Assembly (NCBI GenBank): GCA_021298655.1
Contig: JAJTFK010000014.1
Location: 1 to 32,686, forward strand
Length of the DNA: 32,686 nucleotides
Direction: 5' to 3'
Source of the DNA: Cryomorphaceae bacterium
GTDB taxonomy: Bacteria > Bacteroidota > Bacteroidia > Flavobacteriales > Schleiferiaceae
Of the stretch, positions 1,628 to 8,467 are shown piece after piece. The notes under the pieces were generated by a model. That model ran no database searches. It was not told where the DNA came from and was given only the letters and a program-made list of their open reading frames with translations. Each line of letters opens with the position of its first letter. Within the stretch, counting starts at the first letter, position 1. Made by a program: the position numbers and the translations under genes.

Positions 1628-3920
<2,293 letters not shown>

Positions 3921-3972: not shown

Positions 3973-4623
3973 ATGAATCCGGCGGTAGACCAGCTTTTGA
4001 CCGATGCCGCGCAGTGGCGCGAGGAACTGCAGTTTTTGCGCGCGCTGGTGCTCGAAGCTCCGCTGGTCGAAGAGGTGAAGTGGGGCCAACCCTGCTACAC
4101 CCACGAGGGCAAGAATATTGCGATTCTGGGCGGATTCAAAAACTACTTTGTGCTGTCGCTGATGAAGGGCGCGCTGGTTCCTGATCCCCAGGGTTTGTTG
4201 ACCAAGCCGGGCGAAAACACGCTCGAGGGACGCTGGATGAAGTTCACGTCGATGGCCGAGGCCGAGGCGGCGGCGCCCTATGTGGTGGATTACCTGCTCG
4301 AGGCCATCAAGGCGGAGCAGCAGGGGCTGCGGGTCGAGAAGCCGGCGAACGAGTTTGGGGTTCCGCCCGAGCTCGAAGCGGCCTACGAGGCTACGCCAGG
4401 GCTGCGTGAAGCGTTTGAAGCGCTTACCCCCGGGCGCCAGCGAGCCTACCTCATGTTTTTCACGGCCGCCAAGCAGTCGGCCACGGTTGCGGCTCGCATT
4501 GACAAGTTCACGCCGCGGATTTTACGCCGAAAAGGCATGAACGATTGCGTGTGTGGGCACAGCCAAAAGATGCCGGGCTGCGACGGCAGCCACAAGCTGT
4601 TCCCGGGGTCGGTGGCTTTTTAG
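3973..4623 (+). CDS. YdeI/OmpD-associated family protein with C-terminal CDGSH motif
   Basis: A 216-residue cytoplasmic protein. Residues about 15-115 resemble the DUF1801/YdhG-like fold (EVKWGQPCYTHEGKNIA, then GRWMKFTSM). Residues about 125-190 resemble the YdeI/OmdA 'bacteriocin-protection' domain (PPELEAAYEATPGLREAFEALTPGRQRAYLMFFTAAK). The last 30 residues carry C192-x-C194-x2-S-x3-P-x-C203-D-G-S-H207, an exact match to the CDGSH iron-sulfur signature with three Cys and one His, which would bind a 2Fe-2S cluster. I recall similar tails in other Bacteroidota YdeI proteins, but cannot check. Its biochemical role is unknown. It is divergent from katG and may share the OxyR-like site. Confidence 0.85.
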   Translation: MNPAVDQLLTDAAQWREELQFLRALVLEAPLVEEVKWGQPCYTHEGKNIAILGGFKNYFVLSLMKGALVPDPQGLLTKPGENTLEGRWMKFTSMAEAEAAAPYVVDYLLEAIKAEQQGLRVEKPANEFGVPPELEAAYEATPGLREAFEALTPGRQRAYLMFFTAAKQSATVAARIDKFTPRILRRKGMNDCVCGHSQKMPGCDGSHKLFPGSVAF

Positions 4624-4676
4624 TGGTTATTTAGTTGATTAGCAACTATTTATTGGAACATTGAGCGCCTGAATTG

Positions 4677-4846
4677 GCAACAAATTTGCATTGCTCTTTG
4701 TTGCGAACAGGTCAGATTTTGAGGGATTGCGCCCGCCGCGGAGCGGCCGGGCGCGTTCCCGGATGGTGGGTGGCTTCACTAAATCAAGTGCCCGCCTGAC
4801 ACCTCTCCAGGATGCCGTTCGCTCCAATGAATTCCGAAGCGAACAA
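4677..4846 (-). ncRNA. Candidate structured RNA of unknown class
   Basis: Four inverted repeats lie end to end. They are GCAACAAA/TTTGTTGC (8 bp perfect, 12-base loop, 4677-4704), a GC-rich 11-bp stem with one bulged base and a 3-base loop (4729-4754), a composite stem GGTGGC..GC-CACC around CACT/AGTG (4769-4803), and GTTCGCT/AGCGAAC (7 bp, 14-base loop, 4817-4844). The minus strand is chosen only because TATCTTTG, a -7 match, lies just upstream at 4853-4860. The right boundary is inferred from that motif; the left boundary is arbitrary. No T-tract terminator is seen. It does not show the signatures I know for RNase P RNA, tmRNA or SRP RNA. A dispersed repeat or a regulatory DNA region are alternatives. 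Confidence 0.3.
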
Positions 4847-4852
4847 GGGCGG

Positions 4853-4860
4853 CAAAGATA
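4853..4860 (-). promoter_or_regulatory. Minus-strand -7-like element without a gene downstream
   Basis: Reads TATCTTTG on the minus strand, matching TAnnTTTG exactly. No coding sequence follows on that strand before the convergent end of the YdeI-like gene, only the hairpin series. Confidence 0.35.
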
Positions 4861-4953
4861 GCGCGGGCTGCGTGCTTTTAGCGCCGTTCGCTGCCAAATT
4901 GGCCGATGTCGGGGTGCGGTGAACGAAGGAACGGGAATTGCGTTAAGGCAAGC

Positions 4954-5532
4954 ATGACCCCAGAAGACTTCGCACAGGCCTGGAACCGAGCCGTACCGAT
5001 TCAAACCTACCTCGACGACCAGCTTTCGGCTGTGGTGGACGAGGCCCATCCCTATGCTCCGTACTACAGCATCAACCAACAGCGGGTGCGGCGGTTGAGC
5101 CAGCGATTGCGCCTCGAGGCAGAGACCGAATCGTCGGCGCTGAATGCCAAAAGCGGCACGAAGTGGCTGATTTTGAGCGAGACATGGTGCGGAGACGCCG
5201 CCCAGAGCATGCCGGTATTGGCCGCAGTGGCACGCGCGAGCAACGGGCGAATCGAAGCCCGGGTGCTGTACCGCGACGAAAATTTGGACCTGATGGACCA
5301 GTTTCTGACGAATGGGGGACGCAGCATTCCCAAGGTGATTCAGCTCGACGGGTCGTTTGGCGTTACGGCCGATTGGGGTCCGAGGCCGGCCGAAGCCCAG
5401 GAGCTGGTTCAGCGCATTAAGTCCGACCCGGAACGCGCCCATTTGTACAATGAAGAGCTCCACAAGTGGTACGCCACCGACCGCCAGCAAGCGATTCAGC
5501 GCGAAGTCAGGGAATTGCTGGGGCGCGCTTGA
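4954..5532 (+). CDS. Thioredoxin-like family protein
   Basis: A 192-residue protein of the thioredoxin_9-like type that is common in Bacteroidota. The core has ETWCGDAAQSMPVLAAVA (C79), where a classical thioredoxin would have WCGPC, and a SIPKVIQLD segment with the cis-proline. The second redox cysteine is absent, so it is probably not a standard disulfide reductase; C79 might act alone. There is no signal peptide, so it should be cytoplasmic. The ATG at 4954 (MTPEDF) is preferred because the upstream in-frame ATG at 4906 adds a Cys- and Arg-rich stretch unlike the family. No clear promoter motif is seen directly upstream. Confidence 0.8.
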   Translation: MTPEDFAQAWNRAVPIQTYLDDQLSAVVDEAHPYAPYYSINQQRVRRLSQRLRLEAETESSALNAKSGTKWLILSETWCGDAAQSMPVLAAVARASNGRIEARVLYRDENLDLMDQFLTNGGRSIPKVIQLDGSFGVTADWGPRPAEAQELVQRIKSDPERAHLYNEELHKWYATDRQQAIQREVRELLGRA

Positions 5533-5582
5533 GCTGGCCAAATCCCGTAGCTTGATAACATCGGGCTAACATACCCGTAAAC

Positions 5583-5610
5583 TTGAGGTTAAGCGCTGGT
5601 GCGTGCTTTG
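5583..5610 (+). promoter_or_regulatory. Candidate promoter of the TonB-dependent receptor gene
   Basis: TTG (5583-5585), a 17-base spacer and GTGCTTTG (5603-5610), a variant of TAnnTTTG. The same TTG-N17-GTGCTTTGC arrangement occurs at 28601-28628, ahead of a candidate small RNA. The leader to the ATG at 5645 would be about 30 bases. Confidence 0.35.
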
Positions 5611-5644
5611 CACCCAGAACCATTCTGCCTTAGCACCTCGAGTT

Positions 5645-8467
5645 ATGAACCGCATCCTTCTCATTCTGTCGGCGTTACTATTTAGCACCACCGCACTGGC
5701 GCAGTCCGCCAAACTAACCGGAACCGTAGTGGACGGATCCACCGGCGAGACGATGCCCGGCGCCCAAATTCTCGTGGAGGGCACGTCGCTGACGACGTTG
5801 ACCAACTTTGACGGACTCTACAGCTTGAGCTTGGCCCCCGGCACCTACACAATCGTCGTAAAGTCGTTTGGATTCAGCAATAAAGCCATCACGGGCGTGG
5901 TCGTGCGCGCGGGAAGCGAGACGTCGCTCAACATCACCATGGAACTTTCAAAGGGCGAATCCCTGGACGAGGTGACGATTACGGCTTCGGCGGTGCGCGA
6001 AAACGTGAACGCCCTGTTCATCCAGCAAAAATCGCTTTCGTCGGTGTCAGACGGAATTTCGTCAGAAACGATTCGCCGCACGCCGGACCGCAACACGGGC
6101 GACGTGCTGAAGCGCGTTTCGGGTGCCTCGATTCAGGACAACAAGTTTGCTATTGTGCGCGGACTCAGCGACCGCTACAACGCGGCCTACCTCAACGGCG
6201 CTCCGCTGCCTTCGACCGAGTCAGACCGCAAGGCTTTTGCCTTTGACGTGTTCCCGGCGGCCCTGCTCGACAACCTGGTTATTGTGAAGACGGCTTCTGC
6301 GGAGCTTCCGGGCGAATTCGCCGGCGGCGTGATCCAGGTGAACACCAAGAGCTTTCCCGGCAAGGCGTTTCACGAGTTCAGCTTTTCGACGGGCTACAAT
6401 AGCCTTACGACGTTTAAGAACCGCCTCGACTACCAGGGCAGTTCAACCGACTGGCTGGGCTTAGACAACGGAGCGCGTGCGCTGCCCAAGGGCATGCCGA
6501 CGTCGAACGAAATGTTTTTGATGTCGTCTGCCGAGCGCGTTCAAGTGGCCAGCAAGTTCCAAAACGACTGGGGCCTTCAGAATAAAATGTTCCTTCCGTC
6601 TGTTTCGATGCAGTACAGCGGCGGCGGCAGCAAGGAACTCGGCACGACCAAGCGCCTCGGGTTTATTTATGCGCTGACCTACAACCAAAACAACCAGTAC
6701 AACACGACCCAGCGTCAGTCGTGGCAGAACGAGGTGGGCATGCCGGGCACGTCGCTTATGGAAAGCGACCTGAACGACGACAACTACATCGTCAATACGC
6801 TCGCGGGGGCCTTGGCCAACTTGACCTACAGCGCGGGTCCTAACACGACGATTGGCTGGAAGAACTTGTACTCGATTACGTCGCAAGACCGAGTACTGAT
6901 GCGCAACGGTACCCGTCAGCCCATCGACGCGCCCAACCAGGTGATTCGCCAAAGTGCGCGCTGGTTTACCAACAACCAGATCGTGAGCAGCCAACTGAAC
7001 GGCTCACACTACTTCGAGTCGTTCAAGGGCAAGTTTCAGTGGCTCGGCGCCTACAGCGGAATTTCGCGCAGCGTGCCCAACCTGCGCAACACGCTGTACT
7101 ACGGAGACACCGACGTGGCCGACACCGCGTGGCGCGCCGGCATCACCTCGACTTCAGTCGGCCCCGACTACTCCGGCAGCCGATTCTATGGCCTCAACCT
7201 CGAAGGAATCACTAGCGGCCAAGCAACGTTTGAAATGCCGGTAGATTTCGTGAAGATTGGTCTTCGCAACAACCTCAAGCTGGGTGCCGGAGCGCAGTAC
7301 CGCGACCGCTCCTACACGGCCCGTCAGTTCGGCTATGTGCTGGCCAACTTCATGTCGTTTGACCAGTCGCTGCTCAACCAGCCGATCGACGGCATTTTCG
7401 GGAACGACAACATGAACGCCACCACGGGCTTCTCGATGCGCGAGGGAACCAAGTCGTCGGATTCCTACCTGGCCAACGCGATGCTGGGCTATGGCTTTGT
7501 GCAGTTCGACACGCGCATCATGGAAAAAACCCGCATCAACTGGGGGGTGCGCGCCGAGAATTTCGAGCAAAACCTGTACTCGAAGACCGACAACAACGAC
7601 ACGGTTCAGGTTGAAAGCACCAAGCTCGACTTTTTGCCCTCAGTCAACTTCATTTACAGCATCAACGACGCCCAAAACCTGCGCCTGTCGTACTCGCGAA
7701 CGCTGAACCGCCCTGAGTTCCGCGAGCTGGCGCCCTTCGCGTTCTACGACTTCCAAACCCGCTATGTGGTAACGGGCAATCCGTCGTTGGTTCGTTCGAC
7801 GATCGACAACTTTGACGCGCGCTACGAGTGGTACCCCGGCAAGGGCCAAGTGCTTTCAGTGACCGGGTTCTACAAGAACTTCACCAACCCGATCGAGCAA
7901 GCCACGCGCGAAGACGTGGTGACCGAATACACTTACGTGAACGTTCCGAAGGCGGTCGATTATGGCCTCGAGCTCGAAGGGCGCTTGCTGCTCAGCACGC
8001 TGTTTGGCGCTGCCGACCACGCCGTTTGGAGTAAGCTGACGGTCTTCGCCAACTACGCTTTGATTCGTTCGCGCGTGACGTTGAATTCCGCCACGGCGAC
8101 TGACTCTGTGCGTCCGCTTCAGGGCCAGTCGCCCTATGTGATCAACGCGGGCATTCAGTACCAAAACGAGGAATCGGGAACCACGATCAGCGCCGCGTTC
8201 AACCAAGTGGGTGATCGCATCTTTATCGTTGGCTCAAGCCAAGAGCCTAGTGTGTGGGAAAAGGGGCGCGCCGTCCTCGACCTGTCGTTCAATCAGGAGG
8301 TGAATAAAAAGCTGAGCCTCAAGCTCACAGCTCGTGACCTGCTGACGCCCGACTTGATCTTCTACAACGACATTGACGCCAACCAAACGTGGTCAGAGGG
8401 CGACGACCAAATGTGGCGGACCAACTTTGGACCGACGGTAACCTTCGGTCTGACCTACCAGCTTTAA
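5645..8467 (+). CDS. TonB-dependent outer-membrane receptor with carboxypeptidase-like N-terminal domain
   Basis: A 940-residue outer-membrane importer. A signal peptide ends near residue 20 (MNRILLILSALLFSTTALAQ), which selects the ATG at 5645 over an earlier in-frame ATG. Residues about 22-105 form a carboxypeptidase-D regulatory-like domain (LTGTVVDGSTGETMPGAQI..TNFDGLYSL). Residues about 120-240 form the plug (ETIRRTPDRNTGDVLKRVSG, IVRGLSDRYNAAYLNGAPLP, GEFAGGVIQVNTKS). The rest is a beta-barrel rich in aromatic strands and ending in FGLTYQL. There is no SusD homologue next to it, so it is not a standard polysaccharide-utilisation pair. The next gene encodes a type IX-secreted surface protein that may help capture the ligand. 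The substrate is unknown. Confidence 0.93.
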   Translation: MNRILLILSALLFSTTALAQSAKLTGTVVDGSTGETMPGAQILVEGTSLTTLTNFDGLYSLSLAPGTYTIVVKSFGFSNKAITGVVVRAGSETSLNITMELSKGESLDEVTITASAVRENVNALFIQQKSLSSVSDGISSETIRRTPDRNTGDVLKRVSGASIQDNKFAIVRGLSDRYNAAYLNGAPLPSTESDRKAFAFDVFPAALLDNLVIVKTASAELPGEFAGGVIQVNTKSFPGKAFHEFSFSTGYNSLTTFKNRLDYQGSSTDWLGLDNGARALPKGMPTSNEMFLMSSAERVQVASKFQNDWGLQNKMFLPSVSMQYSGGGSKELGTTKRLGFIYALTYNQNNQYNTTQRQSWQNEVGMPGTSLMESDLNDDNYIVNTLAGALANLTYSAGPNTTIGWKNLYSITSQDRVLMRNGTRQPIDAPNQVIRQSARWFTNNQIVSSQLNGSHYFESFKGKFQWLGAYSGISRSVPNLRNTLYYGDTDVADTAWRAGITSTSVGPDYSGSRFYGLNLEGITSGQATFEMPVDFVKIGLRNNLKLGAGAQYRDRSYTARQFGYVLANFMSFDQSLLNQPIDGIFGNDNMNATTGFSMREGTKSSDSYLANAMLGYGFVQFDTRIMEKTRINWGVRAENFEQNLYSKTDNNDTVQVESTKLDFLPSVNFIYSINDAQNLRLSYSRTLNRPEFRELAPFAFYDFQTRYVVTGNPSLVRSTIDNFDARYEWYPGKGQVLSVTGFYKNFTNPIEQATREDVVTEYTYVNVPKAVDYGLELEGRLLLSTLFGAADHAVWSKLTVFANYALIRSRVTLNSATATDSVRPLQGQSPYVINAGIQYQNEESGTTISAAFNQVGDRIFIVGSSQEPSVWEKGRAVLDLSFNQEVNKKLSLKLTARDLLTPDLIFYNDIDANQTWSEGDDQMWRTNFGPTVTFGLTYQL

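Follow-up and report, generated by a model that had tools for sequence, protein, structure and literature searches.

The tyrT operon of Escherichia coli carries 178-bp tandem repeats, each opening with 19 bases from the 3' end of the tRNA. For the RtT RNA of this operon, which I take to be RF00391, I know of neither a four-way junction nor a copy of the tRNA T-arm. The trailer elements discussed in this article likewise come in units of about 170-200 bp, in tandem and carrying the tRNA 3' end, whereas RtT RNA has its host in a different phylum and gave no Rfam match at the gathering threshold in the window analysed here or in two sets of 13 and 18 loci bearing the element. RtT RNA was described as a noncoding unit released from the E. 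coli tyrT tRNA operon transcripts (Bosl and Kersten, 1991, as cited in PMC4986893 and PMC2965389). Closer in taxonomy is subclass 2.6 of the TnpA-REP/RAYT proteins of Bacteroidetes, reported to be flanked by 'atypical secondary structures', canonical REPs being defined with a GT[AG]G foot (PMC6006769); its phylum agrees with that of the element, although the word 'tRNA' is absent from the main text of that paper, and I regard the subclass as a lead to a candidate enzyme. Inverted repeats in general are abundant around tRNA and tmRNA genes in 1,565 bacterial genomes (PMC10434271), but that survey, in its accessible text, counts simple repeats and describes neither an element in common nor a junction or T-arm copy. 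Intrinsic terminators share with the element a hairpin, P2, and its U-tract, whereas the element has in addition a closing stem (P1), a long arm (P3), the T-arm copy and repeated tRNA ends. Finally, integrative elements at tRNA 3' ends share the direct repeats of the tRNA 3' end, but units of about 170-200 bp leave no room for an integrase gene.

A gap beside the Thioredoxin_9 gene

The window, by which I mean the whole stretch of 32,686 nucleotides of Cryomorphaceae bacterium DNA that was analysed, holds a gap at 4624-4905 between two plus-strand genes recognised by profile matches: a DUF1801/OmdA gene at 3973-4623, whose CDGSH-like end falls slightly below the cut-off, and a Thioredoxin_9 gene at 4906-5532. 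On the minus strand at 1628-3817 lies a peroxidase gene (PF00141) matched in two stretches, which gives it a catalase-peroxidase look. An earlier note had read the gap as four hairpins with a minus-strand promoter motif, and all of these are present: an 8-bp perfect inverted repeat without assigned strand (4677-4684/4697-4704), a GC stem with one bulge and a 3-base loop (4729-4754), a composite stem (4769-4803), a fourth stem (4817-4844, minus strand) that folds as the 5' leader hairpin of a pre-tRNA, and the -7 motif TATCTTTG at 4853-4860 on the minus strand. The predicted fold of the minus strand over 4640-4853 has -82.9 kcal/mol, whereas 200 dinucleotide shuffles of it average -67.3 +/- 4.4 (z -3.59) and none reaches the same stability; the plus strand gives z -2.57, with one shuffle in 200 equally stable. 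The search against the same genome that the note had proposed found the gap matching itself alone (E <= 0.001). Rfam at gathering had zero matches over the window, and ARAGORN called 0 tRNA genes there; RF00005 had no match at the gap, so a functional tRNA gene is not present. The sole weak Rfam match in 4500-5000 at E <= 5, the CC0196 sRNA (RF01519), scored 15.9 bits against a gathering threshold of 35 (E 0.45) and was set aside as chance.

The relatives tell what the gap is. When 60 genomes were searched, the window's own (G000) included, the GC hairpin was matched at E < 0.005 in five genomes of the same genus (G001, G004, G006, G007 and G020; G-numbers denote compared genomes and L-numbers examined loci), and each match adjoins a tRNA-Ser with the hairpin downstream, while G002 and G015 are matched at the same threshold over different pieces of the gap. 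G001, G004, G007 and G020 have both flanking genes in synteny, and their gap contains an intact tRNA-Ser(GGA) on the TATCTTTG-bearing strand; in G006 the hairpin lies 3' of tRNA-Ser(TGA). BLAST also placed the GC hairpin (query bases 106-139) at L105-L110, within long ORFs that are dxs-like by eye, and these matches were discarded as chance. A search for Thioredoxin_9 in 22 genus genomes including G000 (E <= 1e-20) gave the gene in 11, and in all 10 of the other genomes with the gene found tRNA-Ser(GGA) stands divergently beside it, the G002 locus being cut by a contig end. In G009, G011, G013 and G015 tRNA-Ser(GGA) occurs at another genomic place, and a full-length match was not found in G003, G006, G010, G016, G017, G019 and G021, which are 63-95% complete. 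The homologues on which the earlier note had let its idea depend therefore exist, and its remark that no gene follows the promoter is better read as a loss, because the same promoter in relatives precedes an intact tRNA-Ser(GGA) whose body is missing in the window.

What survives can be followed along the minus strand from the promoter, which has the same motif upstream of the tRNA in relatives. The distance from motif to tRNA base 1 is 44 nt in the window, 44 in G020, 45 in G001 and 40 in G004 and G007, with leaders that in these four relatives hold stems of differing sequence (by eye); it is 15-17 nt in eight other listed genomes, four of them with TATATTTG. At 4798-4811 follows the remnant CCT GGAGAGGTGTC, made of 3 leader bases (4809-4811) and tRNA bases 1-11 (4798-4808), identical to G020 and G001 at 14 of 14 positions, its 11 tRNA bases occurring a single time in the window with both strands counted. 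The next 19 bases, 4779-4797, are probably the 3' arm left over from P1, the closing stem of a trailer element, as judged by eye from their likeness to the 3' arms of the G006 (L002), G007 and G004 copies, and they directly precede a C-rich spacer (4761-4778, minus strand; similar by eye to relatives in position and composition) and a T-arm-like hairpin, GGGAACGC...GCAATCCC (4723-4760, minus strand), as they do in intact copies. This hairpin, which includes the GC stem, is the distal end of the element by its BLAST matches; it agrees with the pattern used to search for such hairpins and fits the likeness to a host T-arm described below. These part-by-part homologies were taken from by-eye comparison with the relatives, since a whole-gap alignment misplaced the 5' part of the window.

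Compared with a tRNA-Ser(GGA) gene (RF00005), the window thus has the promoter, the leader, the first 11 bases and the neighbours, but no anticodon, variable or T arms and no tRNA call. Equally, the P1-P4 junction that elsewhere stands at a tRNA or tmRNA 3' end is not found in the window, where P2-P4 and the tRNA body are missing, and the silence of the first element model, R1, on the window (no match at E <= 10) is what would be expected if P2-P4 were lost. The loss seems to continue past the tRNA body through the first three arms of the element, and the promoter and leader left over would yield at most a non-functional transcript. With the neighbour as in intact loci and the promoter, spacing and 5' tRNA bases retained, the gap is very probably a minus-strand tRNA-Ser(GGA) locus whose body is gone from base 12 on, with the distal end of a trailer element left downstream; the identity of the locus rests on sequence comparison, namely the syntenic neighbours, the spacing of the promoter and the 5' bases identical to those of relatives. 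The composite stem at 4769-4803, a tRNA fragment paired with a trailer fragment, looks fortuitous. The hairpin at 4677-4704 is left without explanation by the tRNA-locus reading; it was not seen in the gaps of G001, G020, G004 and G007, where the alignment is poor, or at G006.

How the tRNA body came to be missing

A real deletion accounts for the missing body with about an even chance, a library, sequencing or assembly artefact comes somewhat behind it, and some other rearrangement takes the small share that these two leave. An artefact would mean that an intact tRNA-Ser(GGA) with its trailer exists and that the polymerase or the assembler jumped across the palindromes to make a false junction. 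Some contigs of relatives end at or near such loci, G020 at Gln and Met and G001 at Ser(GCT) being example cases, and Ser-TGA, Ser-GCT, Gln and Arg-ACG, which bear the element in relatives, are absent among the tRNAs of G000, whose assembly has 27 RF00005 matches, all typed, with Ser(CGA) as the sole serine tRNA. Neither is tRNA-Ser(GGA) among these 27, a DNA query giving partial matches only, yet its absence elsewhere in G000 is weak evidence because neither Ser(TGA) nor Ser(GCT) appears there. TCC codons are also in use, 40 of them across ten window ORFs, and the codons reported for a modified tRNA-Ser(UGA) are UCA, UCG and UCU, with UCC unlisted in the accessible text (PMC7661048), so that a true loss would be costly. 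Against an artefact, one breakpoint lies inside the tRNA D-arm and not at a hairpin base, and the contig runs on both sides without N. The missing serine tRNAs, the contig ends and the use of TCC together keep a copy elsewhere or a false junction likely.

That the promoter, leader hairpin and chimeric hairpins make up a functional small RNA or new riboregulator is very improbable: the promoter motif is retained, the fold has the stability given above and a terminator-like minus-strand site lies at 4588-4571 within the DUF1801 gene end, just past the gap (2 sites in the scanned region against 2.9 expected by chance), but the scan found no terminator-like site in the gap itself, the leader, tRNA fragment and GC hairpin each have a parent in the intact tRNA locus, the composite stem joins a tRNA fragment to a trailer fragment, and none of the 59 other genomes searched matched beyond one piece of the gap. 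Of the two possibilities that the earlier note had offered, a structured RNA not yet described and a dispersed repeat with secondary structure, a small RNA gene of its own is thus unlikely and the candidate is explained away as a damaged tRNA-Ser(GGA) locus, while the GC hairpin does belong to a structured, tRNA-linked repeat.

The trailer element behind tRNA and tmRNA genes

The element is a palindrome of about 105-150 nt, predicted to form a four-way junction and starting, in relatives, at the tRNA 3' end. In the predicted fold the closing stem P1 encloses P2, which resembles an intrinsic terminator and has a U-tract, P3 (about 60 nt), at whose base the U-tract pairs with an A-tract, and P4; past the palindrome comes first a C-rich spacer, then a hairpin that looks like the T-arm of the host tRNA. 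Since MAFFT alignments of divergent elements were poor, modelling began from four close copies, on which R1 was built with tRNA bases excluded. In 22 genus genomes R1 found 23 places at E <= 1e-3, both strands merged, 17 of them at a tRNA 3' end by ARAGORN (Ser of three types, Gln, Arg of two types, and Met); the remainder consists of 2 second tandem copies, 2 places at a contig edge with a partial tRNA by eye (G001 contig 193 and G010 contig 169) and 2 places without tRNA, L196 and L203, the former being the sole match in the window's genome. L196 (G000:C11) and a match in G020 (L204, G020:C3) are alike, have the look of bidirectional terminators and have no tRNA near.

A further model, R2, served for searching and for placing elements and was kept out of covariation counts: the quasi-palindromic nature of the element brought antisense rows into it, and as many as 6 tRNA end bases occur in some rows. 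R2 has matches in 59 of 88 genomes and 14 of 19 genera at the family level (E <= 0.01), in 25 of 196 genomes at the order level, 5 of them outside the family (E <= 0.001), and in 28 of 295 at the class level (E <= 1e-4), counts that include the non-tRNA match of the window's genome and from which the strict filters drop weak matches. Among 19 loci outside the genus from the family search, 18 start -9 to +6 nt from a tRNA 3' end and the last at a tmRNA 3' end. A further 31 picked family and order matches include 24 adjacent by ARAGORN, 2 tandem copies (L242), L235 and L244 beside a masked or cut tRNA (by eye), L253 beside the 3' half of a tRNA-Val (by eye), L237 without tRNA and L269, a plain hairpin. 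At the class level 26 of 27 loci are adjacent, two of them to tmRNA, and the last (L279) has a tRNA-Ser 3' end at a contig edge by eye. Another 22, mostly weaker, family matches gave 13 that are adjacent by ARAGORN, three where part of a tRNA or a tRNA 3' tail can be made out by eye (L301, L307 and L318) and 6 without tRNA, among which L311, L312 and L313 resemble plain terminators, L309 is ambiguous, and L299 (second match) and L308 (first match) bear full-looking elements. Over these four sets, outside which many weaker matches lie, 81 of 99 examined matches stand at a tRNA or tmRNA by ARAGORN, or 82 when the Rfam tmRNA of L218 is added, and the element is therefore mostly, not exclusively, tied to tRNA. 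In the 13 and 18 element loci Rfam recognised just tRNA and tmRNA, and the literature searched, mostly without subscription journals and in part through accessible text (PMC4986893, PMC2965389, PMC6006769, PMC9723704, PMC2864571, PMC10434271 and PMC7661048 included), yielded no description of the element, which is apparently an undescribed structured repeat that occurs across the class, in most cases 3' of a tRNA or tmRNA gene.

A loose descriptor of the fold (closing stem and at least three arms) was useless as a detector: besides 21 of 94 tRNA trailers it accepted 109 of 600 random windows; a strict one accepted 16 of 3000 random windows, 6 of these overlapping known elements by coordinates. 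Among 64 oriented tRNA- or tmRNA-adjacent elements, with a mean 5'-arm identity of 0.38, the first and last 16 bases pair at a mean of -17.1 kcal/mol against -5.5 +/- 0.4 in 2000 permutations (minimum -7.15), and P1 closes around exactly three arms in 57 of the 64 (median 17, 60 and 18 nt). The earlier note had also made its idea depend on covarying pairs, and long-range pairing is kept between divergent sequences, although most of these elements came from a search with a structure model and are thereby biased towards pairing. Of the 20 elements gathered first, two (L131 and L133) predate every model; across the 20, an element's own two arms pair at -21.0, arms of different elements at -9.1, and the G021 element pairs with itself no better than with 9 of the 19 others. 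The link to tRNA is independent of this bias.

The distal hairpin resembles the host tRNA. A search with the hairpin pattern found 14 places in 7 of 22 genus genomes, with 0 for the reversed-pattern control, and two of the 14 had no tRNA in the examined stretch (G007 contig 141 and G010 contig 116). The hairpin stem matches the T-stem of the host tRNA in 38 of 63 elements, one element whose T-loop was not recognised being left out, against 202 of 2332 comparisons (8.7%) with differing T-stems; a prior test on an overlapping set had given 22 of 63 against 40 of 959. At least 14 of the last 17 tRNA bases recur within 130 nt past the element in 11 of 63, against 105 of 3738 cross comparisons. Some copies are tandem at about 170-200 bp, with the tRNA's own 3' end: in L242 (G072:C24:57700-59200) tRNA-Val(TAC) is followed by three tandem units in 172-bp steps, units two and three each preceded by the last 17 bases of that tRNA, and tRNA-Ser(GCT) of G007 has two hairpins on its 3' side, 200 bp apart. 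Behind tRNA-Ser(GCT) the T-arm-like hairpin can itself occur three times in tandem, as in L179 (G001; 34-bp steps) and, similarly by eye, in L126 (G006). Separately, L128 (G000:C3:10589-13623), a stretch that ends in a tmRNA gene, holds the 3' half of a tRNA-Ser(GCT) and a degenerate second copy about 200 bp further, which look like integrated-element ends.

What the element may be

Place, fold, likeness to the T-arm and tandem units are shown by sequence and prediction; beyond these, the leading guess is a tRNA-anchored, amplifying or mobile non-coding element. In intact loci P2 would end the tRNA transcript, and the remainder of the element might be kept or amplified as folded DNA or as read-through RNA. 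Because the 3' arm of P1 lies beyond P2, the whole junction could exist only in RNA that reads through P2, or else in DNA that is single-stranded or extruded, and this favours a role at the DNA level, in recombination or amplification. Put in full, and held tentatively, at somewhat less than even chances, the proposal is that tRNA and tmRNA genes of Bacteroidia host undescribed, gene-free, T-arm-anchored units of about 170-200 bp which copy the T-arm and 3' end of the host distally, fold into a four-way junction and multiply in tandem through folded single-stranded DNA or a recombinase acting in trans, the window being a locus where such turnover destroyed the tRNA.

Two rival readings have to be weighed against this proposal, the first being that the element is nothing more than a bidirectional intrinsic terminator. 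A U-tract follows P2 and often, on the opposite strand, P4 (by eye), the non-tRNA matches L196, L203, L204, L311, L312 and L313 resemble plain bidirectional terminators (by eye), and full-looking elements in two genera (L299, G004:C2; L308, G010:C156; L237, G105:C117) are preceded by similar sequence, seemingly the end of one protein gene. A terminator leaves unexplained, however, the long-range pairing of P1 (own -17.1 against permuted -5.5 kcal/mol), the T-arm copy (38/63), the repeated tRNA 3' ends and the tandem units, and the gene after tRNA-Ser(GCT), coaE-like by eye, runs in the same direction; I consider this reading unlikely, if rated higher for the examined matches that have no tRNA. 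The second, that the elements are attachment-site relics of ordinary tRNA-integrating islands, is doubtful to a like degree. It draws on L253 (G029:C24:21298-28315), where two element copies stand about 6 kb apart, one at an intact tRNA-Val and one at the 3' half of a tRNA-Val (by eye), and the interval holds a 163-aa ORF (5358-5849, minus strand) that has a phage-integrase SAM-like domain; but this is a single case, at the one locus where islands were sought, and the same noncoding architecture occurs at many tRNA types and tmRNA in many genera.

The larger find, beyond one damaged serine tRNA locus, is one shared, elaborate fold that trails many tRNA genes in Bacteroidia, along with some tmRNA genes. 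Should the amplifying or mobile element proposed above indeed be mobile, it would be gene-free and parked at essential genes that it leaves intact; a role in RNA would make it a tRNA 3' trailer of a new kind; and it may account for tRNAs that are missing from these draft genomes or stand at their contig ends.
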